A DNA stretch of 64,000 nucleotides from Chthoniobacteraceae bacterium (GTDB lineage: Bacteria > Verrucomicrobiota > Verrucomicrobiia > Chthoniobacterales > Chthoniobacteraceae). Below, piece after piece: positions 32,440 through 50,669 of the stretch. The stretch spans positions 1 through 64,000 of the forward strand of contig JAQGOL010000002.1 in NCBI GenBank assembly GCA_028293625.1, in the 5' to 3' direction. The notes beneath the pieces were generated by a model. That model was given only the letters and a program-made list of their open reading frames with translations, had not been told where the DNA came from and made no database searches. The translations under genes were made by a program, and so were the position numbers. Position 1 is the stretch's first letter. Each line of letters starts with the position of its first letter.

Positions 32440-33297
32440 TTATAAAGCGCGCGGTGACAATGTCTGCGAACTCCATTGTTCTCCACAACCCAGCACGCGA
32501 TAGGACTGCCCTATTTGACTACAAGCGGTCATGAAGTCGATCGGATCGGCAGTGTTGAATGTGAACATGTCGAAATGATGCGGTATGACGATCGTCGCGC
32601 AGCAAGCTTTGGCCAGGGCTGCGGCCTCCGTTCCGTTCAGATTGCCGGCAACACCGCGTGCCGGATCATGCCCGTTAATGGGAAGCAGCGCGATATCCGG
32701 GCGGCCTAGAAGATGAGGGAGGTGGTTATGCCAGCGTGTATCGCCGCTGTGATAAACCGTCCAGGGGCCAAAGCGAATAATCAGGCCAAGGAAGCGGCAG
32801 CGTCCGTGCGAGTCGTGCTCAATGGTATCGTGCGCGGCGGGAATGCCGGTGAACTCAAAACCGCCAAGGTGGACGGTTTGTCCCGCGTCAATCCCGTGCA
32901 TTTTAAAAAGGCCTCCGGCAAGGCGTTCGTGGCCAAGTTCAATGTTAGACGCCGGCAAAAGCAATGGCATTGGGCTGCCGTGCGCGCGTGCGATCGGTAT
33001 TAATGTGGCGGCGTCGAAGTGATCTGTATGGCCGTGGCTGGAGGTGACAATATCGATGAACCCCAAACGTTCCGGCGCGATGCAGCGCTCTGTCATGCGG
33101 ATGTGCTCTTTGTCGCTGCCGGCGTACTTATCTGTCAGCGTATCAGACAGATAAGGATCAATGAGCACCGTTGATCCTTGCCATTTGAGTAGAAACCCAC
33201 TTTGGCCAAACCACCATAAATGAAAATTGAGGCCGTCGTCCGGTGCCGACGCAATACTGGCAAGAAGAGCTTCGTCTTTAAGAACCGGAACGATCAT
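32440..33297 (-). CDS. UlaG-like metallo-beta-lactamase-fold hydrolase
   Basis: A 285-residue cytoplasmic enzyme with metallo-beta-lactamase motifs: the metal site TSSHGHTDHFD (HxHxDH), the strand STVLIDPYLSDTL before it, IPAAHDTIEHD, VYHSGDTRWH and IPHHFDMFTF. This arrangement matches UlaG-type enzymes, where E. coli UlaG opens L-ascorbate-6-phosphate lactone. The gene follows the large cupredoxin-bearing gene with 5 bp between them, so it is probably in the same transcript. Opening a lactone intermediate of an oxidised sugar would fit the surrounding catabolic genes, but the substrate is unknown. Confidence 0.85.
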   Translation of the reverse strand: MIVPVLKDEALLASIASAPDDGLNFHLWWFGQSGFLLKWQGSTVLIDPYLSDTLTDKYAGSDKEHIRMTERCIAPERLGFIDIVTSSHGHTDHFDAATLIPIARAHGSPMPLLLPASNIELGHERLAGGLFKMHGIDAGQTVHLGGFEFTGIPAAHDTIEHDSHGRCRFLGLIIRFGPWTVYHSGDTRWHNHLPHLLGRPDIALLPINGHDPARGVAGNLNGTEAAALAKACCATIVIPHHFDMFTFNTADPIDFMTACSQIGQSYRVLGCGEQWSSQTLSPRAL

Positions 33298-37399: not shown

Positions 37400-38722
37400 T
37401 CACAATATCTGTGCCAGGATCCCAAACACGGCGCCGATCGCTTCGATGCCCCCGCGATGATGGCCGCTCATTAACAAGTAATGATGGGAAGCCAGATGCG
37501 TCATCAAGCGGTGCCCGTCCGGAACGCGGATCACGCCGCCATTCAGGCAGTCTGAACCCGGATATTGCGTGTAGCCGGTTAGTTCGCCCTCAACCACGGT
37601 CATTGTCCTCATATCAGGATGCAGCTTGGCGAGTGTAATGGGACCCTCGGGCAAACGGGCATCAATAGCGTGCGCTTTTTCGTCTACAATCGCGAGGACC
37701 TTTGGGCGGAGCGTCCACTCGGTTGAAAAGGAGGGAGGAACAACGCCGAGATAACCGCAGTGCGCAACCAGGATGTGATTTCTTGGGTCGCCTTCGACCT
37801 TTGGGAAGTCGGCGATCCGCTCGTGTTTCAACGCGGCCTGTCCCATGAGAAACGGGTAAAGGTTTGTCATGATCGTTGGAGCGCCGACCGAGCGATGGAG
37901 AATGAGCTTGGTTAGCATCGAGACGATGTCGGCTTCGCAACCCCAGATTAGTCCCCGCTGTTCGTAGAACATCGACCATGCAAGGCATGGAGTACAGTCT
38001 GAGAAGTATGATTCATTCAGGCAATTGATGCCGACACCTTGCACCGCCGGATCCTCGCCGATGTCGTTTTTCACGGCGAGATATAGTTTTACTGCGGCAT
38101 TGAGTGAAGCCTCAGGCAAGGTTGTAGGCCAATTCCACGCCTTCCATTCCCGCTGTGCATCAGCATCCGCTATTTCCTTGGCGGCGGCGCCCAGCTTCTT
38201 GAAGCTGCGTTTTTCAATAACGATTCCGAACTTTTCAAGCATGCGTTGAACGCACTCTGTTTCCCACCAGTAGAACCGCTTGAAGATTGGCGCCTGCATT
38301 CCCTCACCGGGATCGTCCTGGTAAACGACGAATTTGCTGGTGCGAAGCTGCTGCCTGATGGCAAGCGCGCGAAGCACCGTGCGCGTTTGATCGATGTGAT
38401 ACGGTGCAACGATACGCTCGCCCGCGCCTTCGGACTTGAGATAGGTGATAATTTCCCAGTCCCACATTGAAAGCGTGGCGAACTCGGAGGTAAGCACCAG
38501 CACCGGCACGGTAAAGGCGCGAAAGTCGTCCACGCGGCGATAGGCCTCGCCAAGGAGTTGCGGGAAGACCACAGCCTCGCACTCCGGAAGCGGTGCGCCA
38601 AGCGGCACCGGCAGAAGGAACTCAGCATCGGCCGAAAGGAGGGTTTGCAGATTGGCCAGCTGCGTATCAAAACCGCCATCGCGGCCTGGCTCAAAGTAGA
38701 TTGGAAGGAGACGTGGCTTCAT
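37400..38722 (-). CDS. L-fucose/L-arabinose isomerase-like protein
   Basis: A 440-residue cytoplasmic protein. The C-terminal half resembles the catalytic part of FucI/AraA-type isomerases (GINCLNESYFSDCTPCLAWS, GLIWGCEADIVSMLTKLILH, NHILVAHCGYLGV). I recall this as a conserved family in sugar catabolic loci, but cannot say whether the activity is fucose, arabinose or another aldose-ketose isomerisation. The first four bases of the gene (ATGA) overlap the stop of the Gfo/Idh/MocA gene, so the two are translationally coupled. It is the last gene of the compact minus-strand operon starting at 40742. Confidence 0.7.
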   Translation of the reverse strand: MKPRLLPIYFEPGRDGGFDTQLANLQTLLSADAEFLLPVPLGAPLPECEAVVFPQLLGEAYRRVDDFRAFTVPVLVLTSEFATLSMWDWEIITYLKSEGAGERIVAPYHIDQTRTVLRALAIRQQLRTSKFVVYQDDPGEGMQAPIFKRFYWWETECVQRMLEKFGIVIEKRSFKKLGAAAKEIADADAQREWKAWNWPTTLPEASLNAAVKLYLAVKNDIGEDPAVQGVGINCLNESYFSDCTPCLAWSMFYEQRGLIWGCEADIVSMLTKLILHRSVGAPTIMTNLYPFLMGQAALKHERIADFPKVEGDPRNHILVAHCGYLGVVPPSFSTEWTLRPKVLAIVDEKAHAIDARLPEGPITLAKLHPDMRTMTVVEGELTGYTQYPGSDCLNGGVIRVPDGHRLMTHLASHHYLLMSGHHRGGIEAIGAVFGILAQIL

Positions 38723-39879
38723 ACAAGTTCGCGTTTGCCGCTGGCGGCCGACTTCAGGGCGGCTTCAAGTACGCGAACGCACTTCAGGCCATCGTGGAAG
38801 TTAGGCTCAATAGGAGTTCCTTTGGCAACCGCCTCTACAAAATCGACCACCGCATGCGTGAACTCGTGCTCATAGCCGATGATATGTCCCGGAGGCCACC
38901 AATGCTTAATATAAGGATGGCACGGTTCCGTCGCCAGAATGGTTCGAAACCCTTGCGCGTGCTCCGGATCGTTTCGTGAGTGAAACTGCAGCTCGTTCAT
39001 TCGCTCGAGGTCAAAAACAAGCGAGCCCTCGCTGCCATAGATTTCAAATGTATTCCGATTTTTACGCCCCGGGGCAAAGCGGGTCGCTTCAAAAGAACCG
39101 ACCGCGCCATTCTCGAACTCAACCATCATGAGTGAAGCATCCTCGACTGTCACTTCACCGCGTGCCGAGGCTCCGCCAGTCCCGGCGCTGAAAGTCGCCG
39201 CGCCATCGCCAGGGAGCGGCCGCTCTTTGATGAAATTCGCGGTCAGGCAGGAGACCGTTTTGATATTGCCAACAAGGTAATGAGCGAGGTCGATGCTATG
39301 CGAGTTGAGATCGCCATGCGGTCCGCTTCCCGCTGTCTCCTTCCGCAAATGCCAGGTAAGCGGGAACTCCGGGTCAACGATCCAGTCCTGCTGATAAGCG
39401 CCACGCCAATGGAAAATCCGGCCGATTTTCCCTTCATCGATAAACTGGCGCGCGAGCCTGACCGCAGGTGTCCGGCGGTAATTATGATTTACATAATGAG
39501 TAACCCCGGCGTCTTCGGCGGCTTTGAGCATCGCTTGCGCATCCGCCGCATTAAGAGCCATCGGCTTTTCACAAAAGAGATGTTTGCCCGCGCGTGCCGC
39601 GGCAATGGCCACTTCATGATGCAGATGCTGCGGCAGTGATATGTCCACCACATCCACGTCGTCGCGCTCAATTGCCTTTCGCCAATCTGTCTCAATGTGT
39701 TGCCAGCCCCAGTTTTCAGCGAAAGCACGGAGCGCAGTCTCGTTGCGGCCGCAGGCAACCTGTAGGACGGGCCGGAGCGGCAGATCAAAAAAGCGCGGCG
39801 CCTGTGACCAGGCGTTGCTATGCGCCTTGCCCATGAATTGGTAGCCAATGATGGCGACACGAAGTTCTTTGGTAGCCAT
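38719..39879 (-). CDS. Gfo/Idh/MocA-family oxidoreductase
   Basis: A 386-residue NAD(P)-dependent oxidoreductase. The N-terminal Rossmann part opens with LRVAIIGYQFMGKAHSNAW, and the hallmark EKP motif is in AGKHLFCEKPMALN at about 104-117, where the Lys is catalytic in the family. The C-terminal domain contains GDLNSHSIDLAHYLVG with a His-x3-His-like pair. It lies in an operon: 2 bp after the sugar epimerase gene and overlapping the FucI-like gene by 4 bp. A likely role is oxidation of a sugar, polyol or inositol-like compound, or reduction of its keto form, but no substrate can be read from the motifs. Confidence 0.9.
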   Translation of the reverse strand: MATKELRVAIIGYQFMGKAHSNAWSQAPRFFDLPLRPVLQVACGRNETALRAFAENWGWQHIETDWRKAIERDDVDVVDISLPQHLHHEVAIAAARAGKHLFCEKPMALNAADAQAMLKAAEDAGVTHYVNHNYRRTPAVRLARQFIDEGKIGRIFHWRGAYQQDWIVDPEFPLTWHLRKETAGSGPHGDLNSHSIDLAHYLVGNIKTVSCLTANFIKERPLPGDGAATFSAGTGGASARGEVTVEDASLMMVEFENGAVGSFEATRFAPGRKNRNTFEIYGSEGSLVFDLERMNELQFHSRNDPEHAQGFRTILATEPCHPYIKHWWPPGHIIGYEHEFTHAVVDFVEAVAKGTPIEPNFHDGLKCVRVLEAALKSAASGKRELV

Positions 39880-39881
39880 GA

Positions 39882-40742
39882 TCAGTTCAGGTTGGCCGCG
39901 ACGCCTTTCAGATACCGGATACTTCGTTCCACCATCTCTTCTTCACGCTCGGTGTAATCGGGATGCGGCATATCAGTTTCAAATGCCAGAAACCCTTTAT
40001 AGTCCGCGTCTTTTAGCACCTGCGCGATTTTGTCGATCTCAATAAGCCCTTCGCCCGCCGCGACACATGAAAAGTAATACCACTCGCGTGCGCTGACGCC
40101 TTTTACGGGCCGGATATCTTTAATGTGGGTCGCAAAAACGTGTTTGGCCAGCTTGCGGGTGGCTTCCACCGGATCGTCAAGCACACGAAGGAAATTCGCT
40201 GTGTCGAGGTTGATCCCGAAATGTCCCGAGCCAACCTGTTCGATAAGCCAGAGGATTTCATCGGAATTGTAATCAATATGATTTTCCACCGCCAGCCGGA
40301 TGTCATGGCGGGCGGCGATTTCCGTCGCCTCGCGAAACCAGTTGGCGAGGATTGCGAGTTGCGGTTCGTGTGGCGCGAACCGGAACATGAGGCTGCTGCC
40401 AACCACCCGCATCACCGGCGCGCCGATTAGTTTGGCGTATTCGATATGCGCGAGCATCTCTTCTTTCGCTTTCAGGCTTCCGCCCGCTTCCAATCCGTCC
40501 GGGTGACCCCATGCGTAGACGCGCTCCAATCCGAGATCATCCAGCTTGCGTCGCAGCCCGGTCAGATACTTTTCGCCAAACTCCGGAAAGAAGCATGACT
40601 CGAGGGATACACCGTCGCATTGGAGTTCTTTTGCGCGATCAAGGAACGCATCCATGCTGTAGGGTCGCGGGGATGGTTTTTGCATCGGATAGACTTCACC
40701 GAAGAAGCGATGGTAACAGTAACTGTCGATTCCTACTTTCAT
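39882..40742 (-). CDS. Sugar phosphate isomerase/epimerase-like TIM-barrel protein
   Basis: A 286-residue TIM-barrel protein of the AP endonuclease 2/xylose isomerase-like superfamily. ATG 40742 gives MKVGIDSYCYHRFFG, which fits the first beta strand; the open frame upstream (MQPLPYS) has no Shine-Dalgarno site. Likely metal or active-site residues are in VSLESCFFPEF, RLAVENHIDYNSDE (catalytic Glu), FGINLDTANFLRV, VFATHIKDIRPV and FLAFETDMPHPDY. It resembles IolE/IolI and D-tagatose 3-epimerase-type proteins; inosose or ketose epimerisation is plausible. It is the first gene of the minus-strand operon. No upstream regulator is on this strand. Confidence 0.85.
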   Translation of the reverse strand: MKVGIDSYCYHRFFGEVYPMQKPSPRPYSMDAFLDRAKELQCDGVSLESCFFPEFGEKYLTGLRRKLDDLGLERVYAWGHPDGLEAGGSLKAKEEMLAHIEYAKLIGAPVMRVVGSSLMFRFAPHEPQLAILANWFREATEIAARHDIRLAVENHIDYNSDEILWLIEQVGSGHFGINLDTANFLRVLDDPVEATRKLAKHVFATHIKDIRPVKGVSAREWYYFSCVAAGEGLIEIDKIAQVLKDADYKGFLAFETDMPHPDYTEREEEMVERSIRYLKGVAANLN

Positions 40743-40958
40743 GGAGTATGGGAGGGGTTGCATTACAGATTCAAGCAATAGGGGGAAGGGGCGCGGCAAC
40801 GGCACGGTGCCGTCAGGCGCAGAGATTGCACAGCGTATCAGGAGCTCGAAAGAAACTTGGCGGCAAATAAATTATACTATTGCGTCAGAGACCTTATCGG
40901 CGCTTGCAAGCCACGTTTGTCCGGCATACGCACCGCATTGCCGCCGCGGTTTCCTCCC
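40743..40958. other. Divergent intergenic region between two sugar-related genes
   Basis: This 216-bp region holds promoters for the minus-strand epimerase operon and the plus-strand MFS gene. It contains the AT-rich motif at 40865-40881. No supported gene overlaps it. Confidence 0.5.
40865..40881 (-). promoter_or_regulatory. AT-rich motif in the divergent promoter region (possible operator or -10)
   Basis: On the minus strand it reads AATAGTATAATTTATTT. It matches 42503-42519 (AATTGTATAATTTGTTT) at 15 of 17 positions, and a related element lies at 50660-50677. It lies between the divergent epimerase and MFS genes. TATAAT within it could act as a -10 element, but no -35 lies at the right distance. 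Confidence 0.35.
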
Positions 40959-42476
40959 ATGAATCCCACCTCCTCCCCCCACGCCCGCCGACTCTTTTTA
41001 GGCTGTTTCATCGCCTTGGTGACCTGTGCCTTTGGCTTCATCGTTCGCACCCAGGTTATTGGCGAATGGCAATCACAATTCAATCTCGATGAGACCCAGA
41101 AAGGCGACATTCTCGGTGTCGGTTTCTGGCCGTTTGCATTCAGCATTTTTCTCTTCAGCTTCATCATCGATAAAGTGGGCTATGGCCGGGTGGCTGCCTT
41201 CGGCTTTTTCTGTCACATCGTGTCGACTTTCCTGTTGGTGACAGCCACCAGCGCGCGTCAGCTTTATTGGGGCACATTTATTTTCGCGCTCTCAAACGGC
41301 ACGGTGGAAAGCTATATCAACGGCGCGGTCGCCACGATGTTCCCGAATGAAAAAACAAAATGGTTGAACATCCTGCACGCAGGCTGGCCGGGCGGAATGG
41401 TGCTCGCAGGCATGCTCGGCATTGCGATGGGTAACCTTTCCTGGCAATGGAAAGTGGGTCTTACTTTTGTTCCAACCCTGGTTTATGGCTGCATCCTGCT
41501 CGGGCAGCATTTCCCAGTCAGTGAGCGCGTCGCCGCGGGTGTCAGTTATCGCGAGATGCTCGCGGATTTCGGCGCGCTCGGCGCTTTTGTGGCAACCTAT
41601 TTCATCGGTGTACAGGTTTGTGAAGGGATCCTGCACATGTCAGCCGGACAATTCATCTGGCCGCTTCTGCCCGCACTGGCCGTGGCTGCCATCTTCGGCA
41701 TTGCAGTCGGTTCAATCGGACAGCCAATCTATTTCGCCCTCTTATTGATCATGCTGCCGCTCGCCACCACCGAGCTGGGTGTCGATAGCTGGATTGGCGA
41801 TCTTATGGCACCTGAAATGCGGCTGATTGGCCTGCATGCCGGCTGGGTGCTGGTTTACACCTCGCTCATCATGACTGTGTTGCGATGCTTTGCCGGGCCG
41901 CTCATTCATAAGCTTTCCCCGATTGGGCTGCTTGCCTCCTGCTCCCTCCTCGCCGCGCTCGGATTGTTTAGTTTGTCGAAGGCCGCCGGAGTGACGATTC
42001 TTCTCGCGGCGACACTTTACGGCGTCGGGAAATCATTTTTCTGGCCCACCATGCTCGGTCTGGTCGCCGAACGGTTTCCACGTGGTGGCGCCGTCGCCCT
42101 CAATTGTATCGGAGGAGTTGGCATGCTCGGCTTGAGCGTCGGAATGGTTTTCCTCGGCAACATTCAGGATAAGCATGCGGCCACCACACTCGTCGCAAAT
42201 CAACCTCAATTGGCGGACACTTATCTCGGTACGGAAAAAACCAGCGTGTTTGGAAGGTATCGCGCATTGGATCTCACCAAAATGGCTGCCGCGCCTGAGG
42301 GCGATAAAGCTGAAATTGATCGTGTACGCGCCGTTGCTAAAAAGAAGGCGCTCAGCGCGGCGGCTGTTTTCCCCGCGATCATGTTGGTTTGCTATATAGG
42401 CCTCATCCTGCATTTCCGCGCTCGCGGTGGTTATCGCCGCGAACGACTTAAAACGCCGGACCCTGTGAGCGTGTAA
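40959..42476 (+). CDS. MFS-type sugar transporter
   Basis: A 505-residue inner-membrane protein with about 12 spans. ATG 40959 (MNPTSSPHARRLFLGCF) is used because the first span starts 10 residues later; the open frame before it reads into the promoter region. Loop motifs include DKVGYGRVAAFG at the 2-3 loop and the segment WLNILHAGWPGGMVLAGMLG. A charged loop of about 70 residues (NIQDKHAATTLVANQ to VRAVAKKKA) lies before the last span and is unusual for MFS proteins. The position between the two sugar operons suggests it imports their substrate; the specificity is unknown. Confidence 0.88.
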   Translation: MNPTSSPHARRLFLGCFIALVTCAFGFIVRTQVIGEWQSQFNLDETQKGDILGVGFWPFAFSIFLFSFIIDKVGYGRVAAFGFFCHIVSTFLLVTATSARQLYWGTFIFALSNGTVESYINGAVATMFPNEKTKWLNILHAGWPGGMVLAGMLGIAMGNLSWQWKVGLTFVPTLVYGCILLGQHFPVSERVAAGVSYREMLADFGALGAFVATYFIGVQVCEGILHMSAGQFIWPLLPALAVAAIFGIAVGSIGQPIYFALLLIMLPLATTELGVDSWIGDLMAPEMRLIGLHAGWVLVYTSLIMTVLRCFAGPLIHKLSPIGLLASCSLLAALGLFSLSKAAGVTILLAATLYGVGKSFFWPTMLGLVAERFPRGGAVALNCIGGVGMLGLSVGMVFLGNIQDKHAATTLVANQPQLADTYLGTEKTSVFGRYRALDLTKMAAAPEGDKAEIDRVRAVAKKKALSAAAVFPAIMLVCYIGLILHFRARGGYRRERLKTPDPVSV

Positions 42477-42501
42477 TTGAAACCCGGCACGCGGCTTTAG
42501 G

Positions 42502-42520
42502 AAATTGTATAATTTGTTTA
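42502..42520 (+). promoter_or_regulatory. AT-rich motif upstream of the eight-gene sugar operon
   Basis: AAATTGTATAATTTGTTTA lies 47 bp before the ATG at 42568. It resembles the motif at 40865-40881 (opposite strand) and 50660-50677. It contains an imperfect dyad (AAATT-AATTT) and TATAAT at 42508-42513. It could be the -10 element, an operator for the XylR-type regulator encoded at 49470-50669, or both. Confidence 0.4.
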
Positions 42521-42567
42521 CGGCATCGGTCATTGGTCGGACCAAAGGCGGCAGCTAACTTCCGGGC

Positions 42568-43590
42568 ATGCAACTACCCCCCATTCGAATCGGCATTGTC
42601 GGTTCCGGCCGCGCCGGAATGATCCATGCGCGCAACTTCTCGCGTCTTGTTGCCGGGGCGCGGGTTGTGGCGATTTCCGATCCTATTGCCGAGGCTCGCC
42701 ACGCGGCCATTCAGGAGCTGGGCGAGGTTGCAGGTTACGGCGAATATCAGGCGCTGCTGGAGGATCGGAATGTCGATGCTATCCTGATTGCCGCGCCGAC
42801 AGCGCTTCATCGCGAGATCGCGGTCTCGGCCGCCAGGGAAGGCAAACACATCTTTTGCGAGAAACCGATGGCAATGAATCCCGAGGAATGCGATGCGATG
42901 ATCGAGGCGACGAACAAGGCCGGGGTTGTGTTGCAGATTGGGTTTATGCGCCGGTTTGATGCCGGTTTTCGCGCCGCCTACGAGCGGGTGCAGGCGGGTG
43001 AGATTGGAGAGGTTGTGCTGGTAAAATCGTGCACGCATGGACCTACCTACCCAAAGCCATGGATGTTCGATCTGGCTCAAAGCAATGGGCCTCTGGCGGA
43101 AGTATGCAGTCATGACATCGATACGGTGCGCTGGTTCACCGGCAGCGAGTTCGCGGAAGTATATGCCATTGCAGGGAACTACCGCACGCCGGAGGCTCGG
43201 GAGTCGCATCCGGACTTTTACGATCAGGTGTTGTTGAGTGCCCGGTTTGCCAACGGCTCACAAGGCTGCATTACCGGCGCGCAAGGTGTCCAGTATGCCT
43301 ACGATTCCCGCGTGGAAATCATCGGCACCCATGGCCTGATCAGTATTGGCGGACTTAATGCCGGCACGACCTTTATTTGCACCCGCGACAAGGAGTTACG
43401 CCGCCCGGCGGTGGTGTCATGGACGGGACTTTATCGCGACGCTTACCTGGCCGAAGACGTTGAATTCATCGCGGCCATCCGCGAGGGCCGTCAGGCTTGC
43501 GTCACCGGCCGCGATGGCCGCGCGGCAGTCGCCGTCGTGAACGCAGGCAACCGCTCCATTATCGAGCGCAAAATCGTCCCTCTGAATTGA
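42568..43590 (+). CDS. Gfo/Idh/MocA-family dehydrogenase, inositol 2-dehydrogenase-like
   Basis: A 340-residue NAD-dependent oxidoreductase. It starts PPIRIGIVGSGRAGMIHARN (Rossmann glycines), carries EGKHIFCEKPMAMN with the catalytic EKP Lys at about 95-100, and contains IGFMRRFDAGFR and LAEVCSHDIDTVRWFTG, a pattern close to inositol/scyllo-inositol 2-dehydrogenases (IolG type). It opens the plus-strand catabolic operon (gap to the next gene 17 bp). Oxidation of an inositol or a sugar to its keto form is the likely step; other Gfo/Idh substrates cannot be excluded. Confidence 0.9.
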   Translation: MQLPPIRIGIVGSGRAGMIHARNFSRLVAGARVVAISDPIAEARHAAIQELGEVAGYGEYQALLEDRNVDAILIAAPTALHREIAVSAAREGKHIFCEKPMAMNPEECDAMIEATNKAGVVLQIGFMRRFDAGFRAAYERVQAGEIGEVVLVKSCTHGPTYPKPWMFDLAQSNGPLAEVCSHDIDTVRWFTGSEFAEVYAIAGNYRTPEARESHPDFYDQVLLSARFANGSQGCITGAQGVQYAYDSRVEIIGTHGLISIGGLNAGTTFICTRDKELRRPAVVSWTGLYRDAYLAEDVEFIAAIREGRQACVTGRDGRAAVAVVNAGNRSIIERKIVPLN

Positions 43591-43607
43591 AACCCCGTCC
43601 ACTATCA

Positions 43608-44651
43608 ATGAAAGCAGCCCGACTCTTTGGAAAAAATGACCTACGCGTGCAGGATATCCCCGTGCCGGAACTTCAGCCCGGCGAAATCCTGCTTCGCACC
43701 GCGTCGGCCAGTGTGTGCGGCACCGACATCCGCATGCTTAAGCATGGGCATGCGCAAGCGACGGCTGACGCGCCTCTTGTGATCGGCCACGAGATGGCCG
43801 GGAGAGTTGAACGCGTTGGCGAAGGCGTTGTTGGTTATCAAGTAGGTCAGCGGGTTTGTGTCGCTCCGAATTACAACCCAATCCCTTCCGCGCTCACAGT
43901 AGCGGGCGAAGGTCACCTCGATCCCGACTATCGGGCACTTGGGATCCACGAGGATGGCGGATTCGCGGAGTTTGTGCGTATCCCGGCGCTGGCCGTGCAG
44001 CAGGGAAACGTTTTCCCGATCGCTGCCCACGTTTCATTCACCGAGGCGGCGCTGATTGAGCCGATGTCGTGCGTCTATAACGCGTACGAAAAGGCAGGTA
44101 CCCGGCCCGGGGATACTGTCCTGATCATCGGCGCGGGCCCGATTGGTGTTATGCACGCAAAGATGTCCAGGCTGGCTGGCGCGGGTAAAGTGATCATCAA
44201 CGATGTGCACGCCGAGCGATTGGAAATGGCGCGCGCGATTGATCCTTCCTTTATCACGATTCATGGTGATCTGCGGGCGGAGATCTCCCGCATCACGGGA
44301 GGCCGCGGTCCGGATGTGATCATCACGGCATGCCCGGTGCCCGAAGTACAAACACTTGCAGTGGAGATTGCCGCGATCAACGGGCGGATCGTCTTTTTTG
44401 GCGGGCTGCCAAAAGATCGTGCGGTGGTGCCGCTCGACGCGAACATCATTCATTACAGGCAGCTTGTTGTCACTGGCACCACCCGGCAAAGCCTGCGCCA
44501 ATTCCAGGCAACCCTCGCACTGGTGAGCGACCGCGTGCTGCGGCTTGAGGACCTGGTGACCTCGACATATCCCGTAGAGGAAACCGAGAAGGCGATTGCC
44601 GCCATGGCCAATGCCACCGGTTTAAAATCGCGATTGGAATTCGCCGTGTAA
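43608..44651 (+). CDS. Zinc-type medium-chain dehydrogenase (sorbitol/threonine dehydrogenase-like)
   Basis: A 347-residue MDR enzyme. ATG 43608 (MKAARLFGKNDLRVQDIPVP) fits the family start. Catalytic zinc ligands are in ASVCGTDIRML and VIGHEMAGRVER, and EPMSC supplies a further Glu. The cofactor fold shows LIIGAGPIGVMHAKMSR. The structural zinc lobe, normally with four Cys after GDRV, reads VCVAPNYNPIPSALTVAGEG with only one Cys, so that zinc site is lost. It probably oxidises a sugar alcohol or keto-sugar to the intermediate used by the kinase next door. The exact substrate is unknown. Confidence 0.9.
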   Translation: MKAARLFGKNDLRVQDIPVPELQPGEILLRTASASVCGTDIRMLKHGHAQATADAPLVIGHEMAGRVERVGEGVVGYQVGQRVCVAPNYNPIPSALTVAGEGHLDPDYRALGIHEDGGFAEFVRIPALAVQQGNVFPIAAHVSFTEAALIEPMSCVYNAYEKAGTRPGDTVLIIGAGPIGVMHAKMSRLAGAGKVIINDVHAERLEMARAIDPSFITIHGDLRAEISRITGGRGPDVIITACPVPEVQTLAVEIAAINGRIVFFGGLPKDRAVVPLDANIIHYRQLVVTGTTRQSLRQFQATLALVSDRVLRLEDLVTSTYPVEETEKAIAAMANATGLKSRLEFAV

Positions 44652-44769
44652 AAGAGGCAGCTCGCTTAGCTGTATTGAACAATGTCTGAAAGCCTTCCCT
44701 CCATGCATGGCGTTTTGCCGGTTGCGCCGCGAATCAAAAACCGGAGGAAGCGCTAACGCTGACTGAGCC

Positions 44770-46266
44770 ATGCAATTTGTCATTGGAATTGATATAGGGA
44801 CGCAAGGGGTCAAGGCGGCAGTTTACTCCGCTGAAGGCGAACGCTGCGCTGAAGTATTTGAGGCGTCGCGTCCATACCGGCCGGCTGCCGGCGTGGTTGA
44901 AGAAGACCCTGAGTTCCAACTCGCTTCCACCTGCCGTGCAGTGCGTGAGTGCCTGCGATTAAGCGGAGTGGAAAAGATTGCCGCCATCGCTCTCTCCGGG
45001 CAAATGGCCGGGATCATCGGGATCGGCCTCAACGGCCGCGCGGTGACACCCTATGATTCCTGGCTCGACACACGCTGCGGCGGCCAGATCAAGCGGATAC
45101 AATCGCTCGCAGGTGACGAGATCCTTTACGCTACTGGCAACGCGCCCAGTTTTAACCACGGGCCGAAGATTCTGTGGTGGAAAAGTGAACGGGCGTCGGA
45201 GTATGCGCGCATCGTAAAATTTGTGCAGCCTGCGGGTTATGTGGCGATGCGTTTATGCGGGCTGGGCGCGAAGGCCGCATTTATCGACACCACCTATCTT
45301 CACTTCTCCGGCTTTGCCGATACGAGGAAGAGATGCTGGGACGCAAGCCTTTGCGAGCGTTTTGAAATTGAGCCGGAGAAATTGCCGCAGATCATCGGGC
45401 CGGACGCGCATGTTGGGGAACTTACCCCGGAAATGGCCGGCGCTTGCGGACTCGCGATCGGTACCCCTGTCATGGCGGGATGCGGTGACACCGCGGCAAG
45501 TTTTCTTTCCTGCGGAGCCACGACACCTGGCATTTGCGTCGATGTCGCGGGAACCGCATCGGTTTTTGCCGCCACGACAAACGCATTCACTCCCGATCTG
45601 CATGGCGGCACGCTCGGTTGCGGCCATTCAGCTACTCCCGGCTTGTGGCATCCGTATGCCTACATCAACGGCGGCGGCATGAATCTGGAGTGGTTCCGGC
45701 GCGAACTGGCGGATAGTTCGGTTGCAACTTTCAATCAACTTGATGCACTTGCGCTCCCGGTTGCGCCAGATGCCACGCTACCCTTTTTTGTACCGCATCT
45801 CGGTGGACGTGTCTCACCGCCTCAACCGCATCTGCGCGGTGCATGGGCCGGACTTACTTGGGATCATACCCGGGGCGAGCTTTACCGGGCGATCCTGGAG
45901 TCTGTCGCGCTTGAATATGCCCTCTATCAGCAGGCAGTAAGGCAGCTATTGCCGGATGCGGGATTTGTGGAGTTAAGGATTACAGGCGGAGGCGAAAGCA
46001 GCCACGTGTGGAACCAGCTAAAAGCCGACGTGCTTCAAACACCGATTGTAAAGATTGAGCACGGTGGCGGCGCCCCCATGGGCGCGGCGATGCTGGCCGG
46101 CATGGGAGCCGGTCTTTTTCCAAGCCTTGAATCCGCGGCGGCGGGTTGGGTGAAAAGAGGCCAGCGTTTTGAGCCCGACCCGGAGCGTGCGCATCATTAT
46201 CAGCTACGGATTGAACGCTATAAATCGTTGCTTCGAGCTTTGAACGACTGGAGTGCGGCCGCGTGA
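44770..46266 (+). CDS. FGGY-family carbohydrate kinase (xylulokinase-like)
   Basis: A 498-residue sugar kinase. The N-terminal phosphate-binding loop is VIGIDIGTQGVKAAVY, with ALSGQMAGIIGIGLNGRAVT and PYDSWLDTR in the substrate region. The C-terminal ATPase fold includes VMAGCGDTAASFLSCG, GICVDVAGTASVFAAT and ITGGGESSHVWNQLKADVLQ, all typical of the FGGY family. Length is normal. A 118-bp gap, the longest in this operon, precedes it, so an internal promoter is possible. It probably phosphorylates a ketose or polyol produced by the dehydrogenases; identification as xylulokinase itself would be over-reading. Confidence 0.92.
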   Translation: MQFVIGIDIGTQGVKAAVYSAEGERCAEVFEASRPYRPAAGVVEEDPEFQLASTCRAVRECLRLSGVEKIAAIALSGQMAGIIGIGLNGRAVTPYDSWLDTRCGGQIKRIQSLAGDEILYATGNAPSFNHGPKILWWKSERASEYARIVKFVQPAGYVAMRLCGLGAKAAFIDTTYLHFSGFADTRKRCWDASLCERFEIEPEKLPQIIGPDAHVGELTPEMAGACGLAIGTPVMAGCGDTAASFLSCGATTPGICVDVAGTASVFAATTNAFTPDLHGGTLGCGHSATPGLWHPYAYINGGGMNLEWFRRELADSSVATFNQLDALALPVAPDATLPFFVPHLGGRVSPPQPHLRGAWAGLTWDHTRGELYRAILESVALEYALYQQAVRQLLPDAGFVELRITGGGESSHVWNQLKADVLQTPIVKIEHGGGAPMGAAMLAGMGAGLFPSLESAAAGWVKRGQRFEPDPERAHHYQLRIERYKSLLRALNDWSAAA

Positions 46267-46294
46267 AGCCCGCCCCTGAATTGGTATTTTCCAT

Positions 46295-47239
46295 ATGACC
46301 TACGCACCTTCCATCAAGCCGGCGATGTTCTTTATCGGCGTGACGACGGCAAAATCGTCTATCAACAAAGTCTTTCCACGCTGGGTCGAGTATCTGGAGT
46401 TAGGCGATTGCGAGCTGCGCGGCATGGACTTTCCCATTCATGCCGAACCGGCGCTCTATCGGGAGGCGGTCGAGTTTCTGAAACGCGATCCGCTTACTCT
46501 TGGCGCGCTGGTCACAACGCATAAAATCGATCTGTGCGCGGCTTGTCGGGAACAGTTTGATGCGCTCGATCCGCTCTCTGATTCAATGGGCGAGTTAAGC
46601 AGCATTTACAAACGCGATGGCAAACTGCACGGCCGCGCAGCCGATCCATGGACCGTTGGCTTTTCGCTTGAGGCATTTTTGCCGGAAAACCACTGGCGCG
46701 ACTCCGGAGCCGAAGCCCTGATTCTGGGTGCCGGCGGCTCGGCCATGGCGCTTGCCTGGCATCTTTCCAAGCCCGCGCATGGCGGGAACCGGCCGAGGCG
46801 AATTCATGTCGCCAACCGCAGCACGCCTCGTCTTAAACATCTGCGCAACCTGCATGATTCGTGGGAAAGCGGCATCCCTCTTGAAATAGCCCATGTCCCT
46901 CATCCGGAGATGGCCGACGCGCTGTTAGCTCAACTTCCGCCCGGCTCCCTGATTGTTAACGCGACCGGTCTTGGCAAGGACGCGCCCGGATCGCCGCTTA
47001 CCAACGCCGCCGTTTTTCCCGAGCGCGGATTGGCATGGGAATTTAACTATCGCGGGGATCTCCTTTTCCTTGATCAGGCAAAGGCGCAGGAGAAGTCGCG
47101 CAACCTCCGGATCGAAGACGGATGGGTATACTTCCTGCACGGCTGGACACGTGTGATTTCCGACGTTTTCGCGGTTGATATCCCAACGCGCGGCCCGGTT
47201 TTTGATGAACTTTCGCGCATTGCCGCGAGCACCCGCTAA
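46295..47239 (+). CDS. Shikimate dehydrogenase-like oxidoreductase in a sugar operon
   Basis: A 314-residue protein with the AroE-type two-domain fold. The N-terminal catalytic part has LVTTHKIDLCAACREQF, with K77 in the place of the AroE catalytic Lys. The NTD segment of true shikimate dehydrogenases is changed: HGRAADPWTVG instead of NTD-x-x-G. The cofactor domain has LILGAGGSAMALAWHLS and VNATGLGKD. With the canonical AroE at 62887, this one probably acts on another cyclic or sugar-like hydroxy compound. It sits 28 bp after the kinase gene and 18 bp before the isomerase. The substrate is unknown. Confidence 0.8.
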   Translation: MTYAPSIKPAMFFIGVTTAKSSINKVFPRWVEYLELGDCELRGMDFPIHAEPALYREAVEFLKRDPLTLGALVTTHKIDLCAACREQFDALDPLSDSMGELSSIYKRDGKLHGRAADPWTVGFSLEAFLPENHWRDSGAEALILGAGGSAMALAWHLSKPAHGGNRPRRIHVANRSTPRLKHLRNLHDSWESGIPLEIAHVPHPEMADALLAQLPPGSLIVNATGLGKDAPGSPLTNAAVFPERGLAWEFNYRGDLLFLDQAKAQEKSRNLRIEDGWVYFLHGWTRVISDVFAVDIPTRGPVFDELSRIAASTR

Positions 47240-47257
47240 CCCTCTTTTTGTCAAACC

Positions 47258-47842
47258 ATGAGCACCGCCCCTCTTTCTGAGAAGACCACTTTCATTGAAC
47301 CCTTTTCCGTTGATTACGATTTGGTGGCCGGCGTGATGAAAGAACCGGCGAATCGTCTGACTCGTCGTGCTTCCGATATGCGTAATTACTATCGCGACGA
47401 GGCCGCTCTCGACGCCCTGATCGCGGAAGGAGGTGATCCGGTTCATTACGAAGTATTCGAGCATCCGGTGCCTAATGAATACGGGCACTTGATGTATTGC
47501 ATTAGTGATCTGAAGCCGGGCTCAGTCGGCGATGAATGTTTCATGACAAAAGGGCATTATCATACGCGGATTAACACCGGGGAAATCTATCTCGCTCTAC
47601 GCGGCTGTGGTTACATGATGATGAAAACAACGGATGGGCAATGCCGTTATGAGGAGTTCAGGCCGGGACGCATGGTCTATGTTCCGCCTTACTGGGGACA
47701 TCGAAGCATCAACACGGGAGACGAGCCGCTTATTTCGTTTTGCGTCTATCCAGGCGATGCCGGGCACAACTATGGCGACATCGAGCGTGAAGGTTTTCCA
47801 AAACGCGCATATCGGCGCGGCGGAAAAATCGTCGTGGAGTAA
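47258..47842 (+). CDS. Cupin-type phosphoglucose isomerase (archaeal PgiA-like)
   Basis: A 194-residue cupin. The metal site is in MTKGHYHTRINTGEIYLALR (two His and a Glu), followed by MVYVPPYWGHRSINTGDEPL with a further His. This is the pattern of cupin-type glucose-6-phosphate isomerases, first found in archaea. It probably interconverts an aldose 6-phosphate and a ketose 6-phosphate; the physiological substrate could be a related phosphorylated sugar instead of glucose 6-phosphate. It begins 18 bp after the AroE-like gene and ends 3 bp before the next one. Confidence 0.88.
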   Translation: MSTAPLSEKTTFIEPFSVDYDLVAGVMKEPANRLTRRASDMRNYYRDEAALDALIAEGGDPVHYEVFEHPVPNEYGHLMYCISDLKPGSVGDECFMTKGHYHTRINTGEIYLALRGCGYMMMKTTDGQCRYEEFRPGRMVYVPPYWGHRSINTGDEPLISFCVYPGDAGHNYGDIEREGFPKRAYRRGGKIVVE

Positions 47843-47845
47843 CCG

Positions 47846-48778
47846 ATGAACAAGGTTCTGGTTACACCGCGCTCGGTCACGCGCTCCGGGCATCCGGCGC
47901 TGGAGAAGCTGCGTGCCGCGGGATACGAGGTCGTATTTTGCGCTCCGGGCAAGCAGCCCGGTGAGGACGAGCTGCGAAGGTTGTTGCCGGGTTGCGCTGG
48001 CTACCTTGCCGGTGTCGAACCGGTGACTGCCAATGTGCTCGATGCAGCCACGGAACTTCGCGTTATCAGCCGGAACGGCACGGGCGTTGATAACGTCGAT
48101 CTTACCGCTGCCAAAGCCAGGGGAATCATGGTGTTGCGCGCCGAGGGCGCAAACGCGCGCGGCGTGGCGGAGCTTGCCATTGGACAGCTCTTCGCCCTTG
48201 CCCGTGGGATTGCCGGTTGCGATGCGGCGCTTAAAAGAAAGGGGTGGGAGCGGGGGGCCGTCGGGATTGAACTCGAAGGCAGGATACTCGGGCTCGCGGG
48301 CTGCGGAAAGGTTGGCAAGTTGGTTGCCCATATGGCGCTCGGTCTCGGGATGAATGTCATCGCTTTTGACCCGTATCCGGACACGGCTTTTGTGCCGGGG
48401 CCTGGTTTTCGCTATTCGACGCTTGAGGAAGTATTTGAGAATGCGGACTTCCTTAGCCTGCACTGTCCGCCCTGCGCCGATGGCCATGCCTTGCTGGATA
48501 CGGAAGCAATCGCGCGCTTGAAACCCGGCGTCTTTGTAATCAATACGGCGCGTTACGAGTTGCTTGAAGGTCACGCGGTTCTTGCCGCATTACATTCGGG
48601 ACAGATCGCCGGTCTCGCACTCGATGTGTTTAACACCGAACCTCCCACTGACTTTGGGCTCGCGGAGCATCCTCACGTAATTGTCACGCCGCATATCGGC
48701 GGCTTTACTCGCGATAGCATTGATCGCGCGATGACCCTCTCCGTAGACAATCTGCTTGCCGCGCTGCACTGCATCTGA
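47846..48778 (+). CDS. D-2-hydroxyacid dehydrogenase (phosphoglycerate dehydrogenase-like)
   Basis: A 310-residue NAD-dependent dehydrogenase. It contains the nucleotide-binding ILGLAGCGKVGKLVAHMALG, the catalytic Arg in VISRNGTGVDNVDLT, Glu in LDVFNTEPP and His in VIVTPHIGGFTRDS, all in the order expected of SerA-like enzymes. No ACT regulatory domain is present, so it is a short SerA-type protein. In this operon it may oxidise or reduce a hydroxy-acid intermediate rather than 3-phosphoglycerate. The gap to the previous gene is 3 bp and to the next 18 bp. Confidence 0.92.
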   Translation: MNKVLVTPRSVTRSGHPALEKLRAAGYEVVFCAPGKQPGEDELRRLLPGCAGYLAGVEPVTANVLDAATELRVISRNGTGVDNVDLTAAKARGIMVLRAEGANARGVAELAIGQLFALARGIAGCDAALKRKGWERGAVGIELEGRILGLAGCGKVGKLVAHMALGLGMNVIAFDPYPDTAFVPGPGFRYSTLEEVFENADFLSLHCPPCADGHALLDTEAIARLKPGVFVINTARYELLEGHAVLAALHSGQIAGLALDVFNTEPPTDFGLAEHPHVIVTPHIGGFTRDSIDRAMTLSVDNLLAALHCI

Positions 48779-48796
48779 GCGCCATACCGCATTGTC

Positions 48797-49459
48797 ATGA
48801 ACGAATCCCAAGTCTTTGAAAGGCTAACTTCCGCCTGTGTTGTCGCAGTACTCGTAATCGATCGGGCGGAAGACGCGGTTCCGGTCGCCGAAGCATTGCT
48901 TGCCGGAGGCGTGACGGCAATTGAACTCACACTTCGCACACCGGCGGCGTTGGACGCTTTGCGCCAAATCAGACGCGCCGTGCCCGGGATGCTTGCGGGA
49001 ATCGGAACGGTGCTTACACCGGACCAAGTAAAGCAGGTTATCGATGCCGGGGGGGAATTTGCCGTTGCCCCCGGGATGAATCCTCGCGTGGTGGAAGCCG
49101 CGCTCGCGGCCGGGCTTCCTTTTGCTCCGGGTATATGCACGCCGTCCGATATTGAAAGAGCGCTGGAGTACGACAGACGGCTGCTGAAGTTTTTTCCCGC
49201 GGAGCCAAGCGGCGGGCTGGCTTATCTGCGGGCGATCGCAGCTCCATATGCTCACCTTGGCTTAAAGTATATCCCGCTTGGGGGACTTACCATTTCCAAC
49301 ATGGCAGACTATTTGCGCGAGCCCGTTATTGGCGGTATCGGCGGCTCCTGGATCGCGCCGCGCGACGATATACGCGCCGGCGAGTGGGCGCGCATCACAG
49401 AGTCCGCTCATCGAGCAATTGTTGTCCGCAACAGTCAACGGGAGGCGCGGCCCGCTTGA
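48797..49459 (+). CDS. eda: KDPG/KHG aldolase
   Basis: A 220-residue class I aldolase. The Schiff-base Lys K131 is in LLKFFPAE; the active-site Glu E43 in AIELTLRTP and GTVLTPDQV match E. coli Eda. It also shows PGICTPSDIERAL. It cleaves 2-keto-3-deoxy-6-phosphogluconate (or a stereoisomer) to pyruvate and glyceraldehyde 3-phosphate. Its presence points to a 2-keto-3-deoxy acid phosphate as the last common intermediate, although no matching dehydratase is in the window. It lies in the operon, 10 bp before the regulator gene. Confidence 0.93.
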   Translation: MNESQVFERLTSACVVAVLVIDRAEDAVPVAEALLAGGVTAIELTLRTPAALDALRQIRRAVPGMLAGIGTVLTPDQVKQVIDAGGEFAVAPGMNPRVVEAALAAGLPFAPGICTPSDIERALEYDRRLLKFFPAEPSGGLAYLRAIAAPYAHLGLKYIPLGGLTISNMADYLREPVIGGIGGSWIAPRDDIRAGEWARITESAHRAIVVRNSQREARPA

Positions 49460-49469
49460 TTTCCCCTTC

Positions 49470-50669
49470 ATGAGTTCGCCTAAACGAACTGCCCCTCCGC
49501 ACGTCGCGCTCATTATCGAGACCTCCAAAGTCTATGGGCGCGAGATCCTGCTGGGAGTCAGCCGTTATCTGACGCTTCACGGTCCGTGGAGTATCTTCAC
49601 CCACGAGCGCGGCCAAAACGATCCGGATCCACCGTGGCTGGCGCGCTGGAATGGGGACGGAATCATCACGCGCAGTCACGATCTCAGGTTGTGCAGGCGC
49701 GCACGCAAGCGCGGTATTCCCGTTGTCAGCCTGCGCCATCTCTTTGAGGCCGCGGAGTTCCCGAGCGTTTTTCCGGATCAACAGTTGATTGGAGAGCGTG
49801 TCGCCGCGCATTTTATCAGCCGCGGCTTTCGTCACTTCGGTTATTGCGGAGTGGCCGGACAGAAGGAGTGGGAGCGGCGGCGGCATGCGGCATTTATTAG
49901 CAAGGTGGAGGAGAGCGGCGGCACGTGGGATGACTACAAGCCGAGCTACACGGCCAACGCGGAGGTTAACTGGGAGCGCGAGCAAACCGCAATGATTGCC
50001 TGGCTCATTCAGCTGCCCAAACCGGTTGGCATCATGACGGCCCACGACAGCCAGGGAGTCCAGATTCTGGATGCCTGCCGGCGGGCATCCATTCCTGTGC
50101 CGGACGAAGTGGCGGTGGTGAGTGTCGACAACGATCCCGTTCTTTGCGAATTGGCCAGTCCCCCTCTTTCAAGTCTCGATCAAAATGCGCAGAAGCTCGG
50201 ATTTGAAGCCGCATCATTGCTTGATAGGATGATGCGGGGCGAAAAAATCGAGGCGTCAAATTACTTCTTTGAGCCGGGGGATGTTGTCACCCGGCAATCA
50301 TCCGACGTCTTTGCCGTAAAAGACCCAAATGTATCGAAAGCGGCGCGGTTTATCCGGGAAAACGCGTGTCACAATATCGACAGCATGGCGATCGCGCGGG
50401 CGGCCGGCCAGTCCCGCCGTTCACTTGAGAAAAAGTTTCGCGCCTGCACCGGCCGAACGCCGATGAAGGAGGTGCATGAAATCCGGCTCAGGCGCATCAA
50501 ACAACTCCTTACCGAGACCGACCATATCCTGCCGGTGATCGCCGAGGAGAGCGGCTTCACGTATCACGAATACATGTCCCGTTTTTTCAAGAAACTGACC
50601 GGTTTAACGCCCGGTGAATACCGGAAGCGCTACGGAAAACAGGGGGGCGGGGGTGGCGCAAATGTATAA
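49470..50669 (+). CDS. XylR-type transcriptional regulator (LacI-like sensor plus AraC HTH)
   Basis: A 399-residue regulator. ATG 49470 is used; longer in-frame starts lie inside the aldolase gene. Residues about 10-285 form a periplasmic-binding-protein-like sugar-sensing domain (HVALIIETSKVYGREILLGV, GIITRSHDL, GIMTAHDSQGVQILDACRRA, VAVVSVDNDPVLCELASPP). The last about 110 residues are an AraC HTH (IDSMAIARAAGQSRRSLEKK, EESGFTYHEYMSRFFKKLTG). This is the architecture of E. coli XylR and its PVC relatives. As the last gene of the catabolic operon it probably regulates the operon in response to its substrate; operator candidates are the AT-rich motifs listed. Confidence 0.92.
   Translation: MSSPKRTAPPHVALIIETSKVYGREILLGVSRYLTLHGPWSIFTHERGQNDPDPPWLARWNGDGIITRSHDLRLCRRARKRGIPVVSLRHLFEAAEFPSVFPDQQLIGERVAAHFISRGFRHFGYCGVAGQKEWERRRHAAFISKVEESGGTWDDYKPSYTANAEVNWEREQTAMIAWLIQLPKPVGIMTAHDSQGVQILDACRRASIPVPDEVAVVSVDNDPVLCELASPPLSSLDQNAQKLGFEAASLLDRMMRGEKIEASNYFFEPGDVVTRQSSDVFAVKDPNVSKAARFIRENACHNIDSMAIARAAGQSRRSLEKKFRACTGRTPMKEVHEIRLRRIKQLLTETDHILPVIAEESGFTYHEYMSRFFKKLTGLTPGEYRKRYGKQGGGGGANV

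Follow-up and report, generated by a model that had tools for sequence, protein, structure and literature searches.

A conserved gene module around an AroE-like dehydrogenase in a Chthoniobacteraceae genome and a possible dehydratase-free route to a KDPG-type aldolase

The window analysed here, a stretch of 64,000 nucleotides, is part of contig C8 in the draft genome (6.83 Mb, 43 contigs) of a Chthoniobacteraceae bacterium and carries two divergent operons with predicted roles in sugar catabolism, one of which encodes an AroE-like dehydrogenase. Twelve genes were assigned to this locus in the original prediction; all of them are present at the positions given, and their families were confirmed by profile searches. 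On the plus strand, a major facilitator superfamily (MFS) transporter (g4, 40959..42476; PF07690, 67.7 bits) is followed by eight genes. They encode an IolG-like oxidoreductase of the Gfo/Idh family (g5, 42568..43590; TIGR04380, 267.3 bits, cut-off 355), a zinc-dependent alcohol/polyol dehydrogenase (g6, 43608..44651; PF08240 and PF00107, under the cut-off of every NCBIfam model listed), an XylB-like FGGY sugar kinase (g7, 44770..46266; PF00370/PF02782; TIGR01312, 267.5 bits, cut-off 380), the AroE-like dehydrogenase (g8, 46295..47239), a cupin of the phosphoglucose isomerase type, predicted to be an aldose/ketose-phosphate isomerase (g9, 47258..47842), a D-2-hydroxyacid dehydrogenase (2-HADH; g10, 47846..48778; PF02826/PF00389), a class I aldolase of the 2-keto-3-deoxy-6-phosphogluconate (KDPG)/KHG type (g11, 48797..49459; PF01081, 199 bits) and a XylR-type regulator (g12, 49470..50669; Peripla_BP_3, HTH_18 and PBP1_XylR). 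The starts at 43608, 49470 and 40959 are likely ones picked by sequence reading, the open reading frames (ORFs) of the regulator and the transporter being open from 49278 and 40857, respectively. The gaps in the plus operon were correctly given as 3–118 bp, of which the 10 bp in front of the regulator depend on the start chosen.

The minus operon begins with a TIM-barrel protein of the AP_endonuc_2 family that resembles sugar isomerases, epimerases and dehydratases (g3, 39882..40805; PF01261, 102.8 bits), followed by a levoglucosan-dehydrogenase-like Gfo/Idh oxidoreductase (g2, 38719..39879; NF052479; PDB 4h3v and 6a3f) and a putative isomerase of the FucI/AraA fold (g1, 37400..38722). The 2-bp gap between g2 and g3 and the 4-bp overlap of g1 and g2 were likewise described correctly. 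Of the minus operon as first drawn, the run g3-g2-g1 stands and the extent does not, as the operon continues to 32440. It includes a 1327-amino-acid protein (33303..37286), probably exported as judged by eye, in which domains of the laminin-G, DUF6797 and copper-binding kinds score over cut-off, and, 5 bp further on, a hydrolase of the metallo-beta-lactamase fold related to UlaG (32440..33297), which had been missed; 113 bp separate the 1327-amino-acid protein from g1. The close relative L036 has g3, g2, g1, one ORF and the hydrolase in identical order. That ORF lies at the position equivalent to the gene for the 1327-amino-acid protein, in which weaker TIM-barrel and DUF7133 matches were also seen.

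No Pfam family was found over cut-off for two genes of the locus, g8 and g1. For g8, PF01488 reached only 16.0 bits (cut-off 24.3) and the best curated AroE model 39.4 bits (cut-off 295), and these scores rule out an ordinary AroE of the shikimate pathway. The structural model of g8 (mean pLDDT 95.3) has a two-domain fold, and its best PDB matches are shikimate dehydrogenases (2hk9: E 3e-18, TM-score normalised to the query (TMq) 0.71, 18% identity). At E 1e-3, a genome scan with g8 yielded 113 relatives, and the 80 best of them (50–85% identity) were retained; the scan was pattern-based, so its counts favour close relatives. An alignment of 55 sequences of the family, that of the window included, contains 50 invariant columns. 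When g8 was profile-aligned to ten AroE-type proteins of the ordinary kind, its Lys77 and Asp117 fell on the Lys of the VTxPHK motif and the Asp of the NTD/STD motif, positions which we take to be the catalytic pair of AroE, and both are invariant in the family (55/55). Asn251, Arg253, Trp277, Tyr279 and Trp284 are invariant to the same degree and are, to our knowledge, not features of AroE. Judged by sequence and model, g8 belongs to a new shikimate-dehydrogenase-fold family of its own and is probably a dehydrogenase with a re-tuned pocket.

Among the structural matches of g8 was also 5-ketofructose reductase (7cok and 7col), which shares the fold and acts on a sugar, with 15–17% identity over the structural alignment. 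In the parts of the publication available, 5-ketofructose reductase is described as related to shikimate dehydrogenases, a putative shikimate dehydrogenase of Clostridium pasteurianum is reported as inactive on 5-ketofructose, and no linkage to a catabolic module is described (PMC7954740). Because of this enzyme, a shikimate-dehydrogenase fold acting on a keto-sugar has a precedent.

The surroundings of the 80 retained AroE-like genes were searched within 9 kb by tblastn, with queries from ORF calls that were sorted by amino-acid composition and are wrong in places. At least 6 kb are available on both sides in 44 loci; the other 36 fall short of 6 kb on one side and do not enter the main count. 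In the 44 fully flanked loci, the cupin was found near the AroE-like gene in 40, the FGGY kinase in 37, the zinc dehydrogenase in 36, the 2-HADH in 35, the hydrolase in 32 and the KDPG-family aldolase in 23, followed by the IolG-like gene (21), the FucI-like gene (8), g2 (6) and g3 (6); a chance control was made for the cupin pairing, and the FGGY, zinc dehydrogenase and 2-HADH counts stem from large families without such a control. In all 80 loci, the corresponding numbers are 56 for the 2-HADH, 50 for the hydrolase, 29 for the IolG-like gene, 14 for the FucI-like gene and 10 each for g2 and g3. Cupin, 2-HADH and hydrolase occur jointly in 28 of the 44 loci and together with the aldolase in 20, and in 40 the AroE-like gene has two or more of cupin, 2-HADH, hydrolase, KDPG-family aldolase and FGGY kinase in its vicinity. 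The types g2 and g3 are always found together, in the same 10 of the 80 loci, eight of which also have the FucI-like gene. The gene-neighbourhood search that had been proposed for the exact eight-gene order thus returned a conserved gene set, and the order itself was seen only in the two close relatives L033 and L036.

The pairing of the AroE-like gene with the cupin could be assessed against the background of the phylum. The cupin is rare there, matching in 26 of 387 genomes at E 0.001, with 25 over the Pfam cut-off and 17 at 80 bits or more, a line for strong cupins that was set after the results were seen. Matches to g8 at E 0.001 were obtained in 89 of the 387 genomes; five reach 373–727 bits and represent AroE-like orthologs, and the other 84 stay at or below 40.1 bits and are taken as ordinary AroE. 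All five genomes with the ortholog are among the 17 with a strong cupin, and in all five the two genes are neighbours, with match borders 77–137 bp apart. The co-occurrence alone has a chance probability of P 8.8e-8, with genomes treated as independent, and the AroE-like/cupin pairing is far above chance. Copies of cupin and KDPG-family aldolase were counted in 27 hand-chosen genomes of the 42 with the module. One strong cupin was found in 25 of these and two in G390 and G406; in G423 cupin and aldolase lie on different contigs.

A compact form of the gene set occurs on rhizobial and Marinovum plasmids, where the cupin, the KDPG-family aldolase (in two of three), the AroE-like gene, the 2-HADH and the hydrolase are followed by a regulator (twice of the SIS-domain type); adjoining genes encode FGGY-type kinases, dehydrogenases or reductases, and an ATP-binding cassette (ABC) transporter for sugars. 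The Shinella copy is a longer form and includes a gene of the inositol-monophosphatase family. RpiR/SIS-domain regulators are found in the alphaproteobacterial copies. From the gene set, its linkage, and the folds and catalytic residues of its products, there is very little doubt that the locus is one real conserved module, and the idea of a conserved catabolic locus from which the analysis started is borne out by linkage across related loci.

A number of further genes were noted in the surroundings of the related loci. A 613-amino-acid protein, by eye of the Tm-1-like/UPF0261 type, adjoins the module in L050 (7.0–9.7 kb) and is also present in L034. In four spirochaete records (L079, L096, L097 and L110) the AroE-like gene adjoins a DeoR-type regulator, with the IolG-like gene and zinc dehydrogenase on the opposite strand and a gene of HAD type by eye; the remaining core lies some kb away in L079 and L110 and was not seen within the stretch in L096 and L097. 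Genes that look by eye like GH2-type glycosidases occur in L041, L043, L047, L084 and L107 and are a possible hint to the substrate.

Among the 80 retained relatives of g8, those closest to it stem from records under the names Chthoniobacter, Spartobacteria and other Verrucomicrobiota. A tree of 73 rows carries the labels Verrucomicrobiota, Planctomycetota, Spirochaetota, Pseudomonadota, Actinomycetota, Lentisphaerota, Armatimonadota, Fibrobacterota, Nitrospirota, Hydrogenedentota and Bacillota as well as one Lokiarchaeia bin; where a label is represented by a single row from a bin, a stray contig may be the source. Placing the phylum labels on this tree takes 21 changes, with a minimum of 11 and a mean of 41.8 after shuffling. 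The family is both clustered and mixed by phylum, which suggests transfer, with the reservation that contigs may have strayed into bins. Records labelled as nine bacterial phyla contribute loci in which two or more core partners are present. No partner genes were found near the gene of the Nitrospirota row, and in the Bacillota row only 2-HADH and KDPG-family aldolase genes are present, about 8 kb away. In the Lokiarchaeia bin (L104, 10.0–14.0 kb), AroE-like gene, cupin, 2-HADH, hydrolase and KDPG-family aldolase are consecutive after a transporter recognised by eye, and no FGGY kinase lies in this stretch; transfer and a stray contig are both possible.

Several of the partner enzymes could be characterised further from their scores, folds and active-site residues. 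The cupin g9 scores 108.9 bits with PF06560 (cut-off 20.7) and matches PDB 1j3p with E 7.4e-55. Its metal ligands as well as Tyr64, Thr97 and Gly99, whose roles we assume to be those of PfPGI, are invariant in all 38 aligned sequences, and in every test made the protein looks like a phosphosugar isomerase. Phosphosugar chemistry is suggested because these isomerase residues are invariant and because of the RpiR/SIS-domain regulators of the alphaproteobacterial copies. The aldolase g11 reaches 210.4 bits with TIGR01182, above the cut-off of 156; Glu43 and Lys131 are present in 22 of 22 aligned KDPG-family sequences and Thr161 in 19, with Leu in the window, L033 and L036. By comparison with what we take to be the residues of the Escherichia coli enzyme, these are presumably of the classical KDPG type.

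The hydrolase of the window is 30–39% identical to 28 hydrolases of related loci, and its HxHxDH motif is invariant (29/29). The nearest PDB match is UlaG (2wyl), at E 5.6e-8 a distant relative, and the curated UlaG model gives 37 bits against a cut-off of 306. UlaG is an L-ascorbate-6-phosphate lactonase, and the hydrolase is predicted to be a lactonase acting on a sugar lactone, possibly a phosphorylated one. By family membership the hydrolase of the window would be the same enzyme as that of the other loci.

The kinase g7 is XylB-like, and the kinase tested from Gemmobacter (L109) belongs to the GlpK family (696 bits, over the cut-off of 590); by these matches the type of kinase varies between loci and the core is constant. 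For g1, no Pfam match was obtained even at E 1 and no significant sequence match in the PDB. Its model (pLDDT 86.4) matches the L-arabinose isomerase AraA best (4f2d, TMq 0.70, 13% identity), and 11 aligned relatives are 44–79% identical to it; on sequence and model, g1 represents an undescribed isomerase-fold family. The transporter binding protein of a Rhizobium leguminosarum plasmid copy matches PDB 4ry9 with E 5.8e-110, and that of L108 gave weak matches only. The ligand of 4ry9 is, as we assume, D-talitol; the literature gave no confirmation, and this match was not used to assign a substrate. The passages available of a further paper deal with alditol dehydrogenases (PMC12193009).

Taken together, the locus may be a conserved catabolic module acting on a ketose, or on a polyol or cyclitol that is turned into a ketose by an initial oxidation, and working without a dehydratase; this is the reading put forward here, tentatively and short of being probable. 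The substrate, the carbon attacked by each dehydrogenase and the union of the steps in one pathway are what we infer from the enzyme families, and the order of the steps given below is doubtful. The substrate would be taken up by the MFS transporter (an ABC transporter in other loci) and oxidised to a keto-sugar by the zinc dehydrogenase, the IolG-like enzyme or both. After phosphorylation by the FGGY kinase, the cupin would interconvert aldose and ketose phosphate, and the AroE-like dehydrogenase would oxidise the sugar phosphate to a lactone. The UlaG-like hydrolase would open the lactone ring to an aldonate phosphate, the 2-HADH would oxidise C2, and the KDPG-family aldolase would yield a three-carbon 2-keto acid and triose phosphate. 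The lactone step is proposed because the nearest solved relative of the hydrolase is the UlaG lactonase, and the presence of this gene in the minus operon makes the chemistry likely to differ from that of the original prediction. In such a sequence of steps, an Entner-Doudoroff dehydratase would be unneeded. An atom count over two oxidations and a hydrolysis suggests that an ordinary sugar would give hydroxypyruvate as the acid part, and a 3-deoxy sugar pyruvate. It is doubtful, though worth stating, that this amounts to a previously undescribed phosphorylated oxidative sugar pathway that reaches a KDPG-type aldolase without a dehydratase, built around an AroE-like sugar-phosphate dehydrogenase and a UlaG-like lactonase.

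As to the minus operon, it may serve the module as an accessory feeder, in which Gfo/Idh oxidoreductase, TIM barrel and FucI-like protein would trim a glycoside or anhydrosugar. Alternatively, though this too is doubtful, two unrelated systems might simply be adjacent, namely a 3-keto-glycoside or anhydrosugar operon (g1–g3 and the 1327-amino-acid protein) and a separate plus operon. In line with this, g2 resembles levoglucosan dehydrogenase (NF052479, 399.7 bits, cut-off 650), and in 70 of the 80 loci, among them 38 of the 44 fully flanked ones, no g2 or g3 was seen at a distance of up to 9 kb from the AroE-like gene. However, they recur beside the module in 10 loci and in several arrangements, also in the single-contig genome G078; as the AroE-like gene was the entry point to every locus, sampling of g2 and g3 was restricted to its surroundings. 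According to the available parts of its description, levoglucosan catabolism combines Gfo/Idh enzymes with proteins annotated as sugar isomerases, the pathway (LgdA, B1, B2, C) ends at glucose, and no enzyme types of the plus operon are named save a second Gfo/Idh (PMC7676230). It resembles g2 and g3 and was rejected as the identity of the whole locus, as it fits these two genes only.

Whether the single-module scheme can do without a dehydratase was approached by a survey (DEHYDRATASES) confined to four sugar-acid dehydratase families and made on whole genomes rather than on the flanks of the 80 loci. Edd and PF00920 were searched in 42 genome handles (G177 and G391 are apparently the same genome), MR_MLE (PF13378) in 17 of the 42, and UxaA-type (PF04295) and UxuA (PF03786) proteins in 11 of those 17. 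The 11 genomes are the own genome of the window plus 10 of the 13 (of 42) with a single PF00920 match and were thus chosen towards few dehydratases. In line with what had been stated before, the listed own-genome matches to the four families all lie outside C8:1-64000. In the whole own genome Edd reaches at best 264 bits (cut-off 708). PF00920 is represented there by four proteins, of which one is presumably IlvD, and PF13378 by three that exceed the cut-off; PF04295 and PF03786 have no representative.

The question of the missing dehydratase proved worth asking, as four of the 11 genomes (G078, G396, G406 and G423) have a lone PF00920 protein, presumably IlvD, and nothing over the cut-offs of PF13378, PF04295 and PF03786. 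Each of the four carries a KDPG-family aldolase. G078 consists of one contig at 99% completeness, and a 20-kb stretch of it holds every enzyme type of the locus along with the regulator. One strand carries the IolG-like, FucI-like, zinc dehydrogenase, FGGY kinase, AroE-like, cupin and 2-HADH genes; beyond this run come g3, g2, an aldolase of the KDPG family, the hydrolase (on the opposite strand) and the first part of a XylR-type regulator. No MFS match was seen in this stretch. In G396 (locus L059) the aldolase is classical, the sole one of the KDPG family found in the genome, and located about 1 kb from the cupin.

Several findings weigh against the dehydratase-free scheme. More than a lone PF00920 protein is present in seven of the 11 four-family genomes, and the genome of the window itself has three further IlvD/Edd-family and three MR_MLE proteins elsewhere. 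Edd over cut-off was found in 10 of the 42 genomes, all from rhizobial, rhodobacteral or Xenophilus loci, and G413, a Gemmobacter bin, has Edd-like fragments. On the Marinovum plasmid, a gene annotated as dihydroxyacid/phosphogluconate dehydratase lies just beyond the module on the opposite strand, adjoining a TRAP transporter. The aldolase of G078 is a divergent subtype (34–40% identity) with the Schiff-base Lys region kept and Thr in place of the expected Arg47, and G396, G406 and G423 come without a completeness figure. The classical aldolase residues argue for a true 3-deoxy substrate, so the scheme would fit only if the sugar were 3-deoxy. The hydrolase of the window sits in the other operon and shares just 30–39% identity with its 28 relatives. 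The surroundings of the AroE-like gene hold no cupin, 2-HADH, hydrolase, KDPG-family aldolase or FGGY kinase in L085 and L096; cupin and 2-HADH are absent nearby in L112, and 2-HADH and hydrolase in L045 and L092. Twelve of the 17 strong-cupin genomes lack the AroE-like gene. Finally, the substrate assignments of the enzymes are all predictions.

Some of these points would fit an Entner-Doudoroff-type route, in which a dehydratase of the IlvD/Edd type or enolase superfamily encoded elsewhere makes the 2-keto-3-deoxy acid and the locus supplies and cleaves it. The additional PF00920 and PF13378 proteins of the own genome, the aldolase residues, the full Edd in 10 of the 42 genomes and the annotated gene on the Marinovum plasmid all speak for it, and like the Entner-Doudoroff pathway the locus ends in a KDPG-type aldolase, with the active-site residues that we assume for E. 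coli. However, the own genome is without an Edd over cut-off, and the locus instead combines a cupin isomerase with an AroE-like dehydrogenase and a 2-HADH; moreover, four of the 11 chosen genomes carry one PF00920 protein only from the four families, and the lone KDPG-family aldolase of G396 lies close to the cupin. Such a route is rather unlikely. Dehydration might also take place within the locus, with the cupin (via an enediolate) or the TIM barrel (as in IolE) giving a 3-deoxy-2-keto intermediate; oxidation of this compound to KDPG would fall to the AroE-like enzyme or the 2-HADH. This would account for the classical aldolase residues, and the best NCBIfam match of g3 is the dehydratase IolE, though with 41 of 290 bits. 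It is nevertheless improbable, as the g3 type lies near the AroE-like gene in 10 of 80 and 6 of 44 loci only, the cupin retains ordinary isomerase residues, and we know of no cupin dehydratase of such a kind.

The Thermotoga inositol pathway (IolG, IolM, IolN and IolO), to which the locus had been likened, was considered as a scheme, because IolG-like and zinc dehydrogenases and a KDPG aldolase are common to both; the locus has in addition an FGGY kinase, an AroE-like enzyme, a cupin and a 2-HADH. It was rejected: even at E 1, the profile of the diketo-inositol hydrolase IolN matched nothing in the own genome (of 14 control genomes, seven matched, Thermotoga maritima included, one over cut-off), and the locus proteins reach only 160.2 bits with IolM (cut-off 450) and 19.2 bits with IolO (cut-off 300). 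The IolG profile, with 267.3 of 355 bits, is likewise below its cut-off but speaks neither way. An inositol-like substrate is possible all the same. In a cyclitol pathway, IolG-like and zinc dehydrogenases would produce a diketone, the hydrolase would open the ring, and the AroE-like protein would, like shikimate dehydrogenase, have a ring compound in its keto form as substrate. The fold of g8 and the score of g5 agree with this, as do the inositol-monophosphatase-family gene of the Shinella copy and one rhizobial zinc dehydrogenase that scores best with IolM (201.7 of 450 bits). The low IolM and IolO scores and the missing IolN match tell against it, as do a cupin of the phosphosugar isomerase type and an IolG-like gene near the AroE-like gene in just 29 of 80 loci (21 of 44 fully flanked), and we regard a cyclitol pathway as improbable.

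Another relative of the proposed scheme is the L-glucose/L-galactose pathway (lgu genes) of Luteolibacter LG18, which is likewise verrucomicrobial and oxidative and ends in a KDPG aldolase; in the available parts of its description it uses a D-altronate dehydratase and a 2-keto-3-deoxygluconate kinase able to use pyrophosphate, and AroE-like, cupin and FGGY steps are unmentioned (PMC12632266). Compared by this description alone, it is dehydratase-based and was rejected as the same system. No description of the enzyme combination of the locus was found among openly licensed papers, a weak absence, and to that extent the earlier view that the route matches no known pathway is upheld.

Outside the two operons, the locus is bordered by two very long ORFs, both on the plus strand, at 26388-32429 (2013 amino acids) and 52373-58306 (1977 amino acids). 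Directly after the regulator, an ORF at 50801-52261 (plus strand, 486 amino acids) shows a weak C-terminal PEP-CTERM match of 16.9 bits, with a cut-off of 20.7.

The gene set is linked in dozens of genomes of Verrucomicrobiota, Planctomycetota, Spirochaetota and alphaproteobacteria, including named strains and rhizobial plasmids, and no substrate for it was found in the literature. As named strains of Rhizobium, Shinella and Gemmobacter carry the module, it can be tested now; among them are Rhizobium herbae HU44 with locus L099, Shinella granuli DSM 18401 with L091 and Gemmobacter aquatilis DSM 3857 with L109. Genes whose automatic annotation in these genomes reads shikimate dehydrogenase, glucose-6-phosphate isomerase or phosphoglycerate dehydrogenase may belong to one sugar pathway, and, if the step logic is true, the module would provide a new way to aldolase cleavage and a substrate class for a new branch of the shikimate-dehydrogenase fold.

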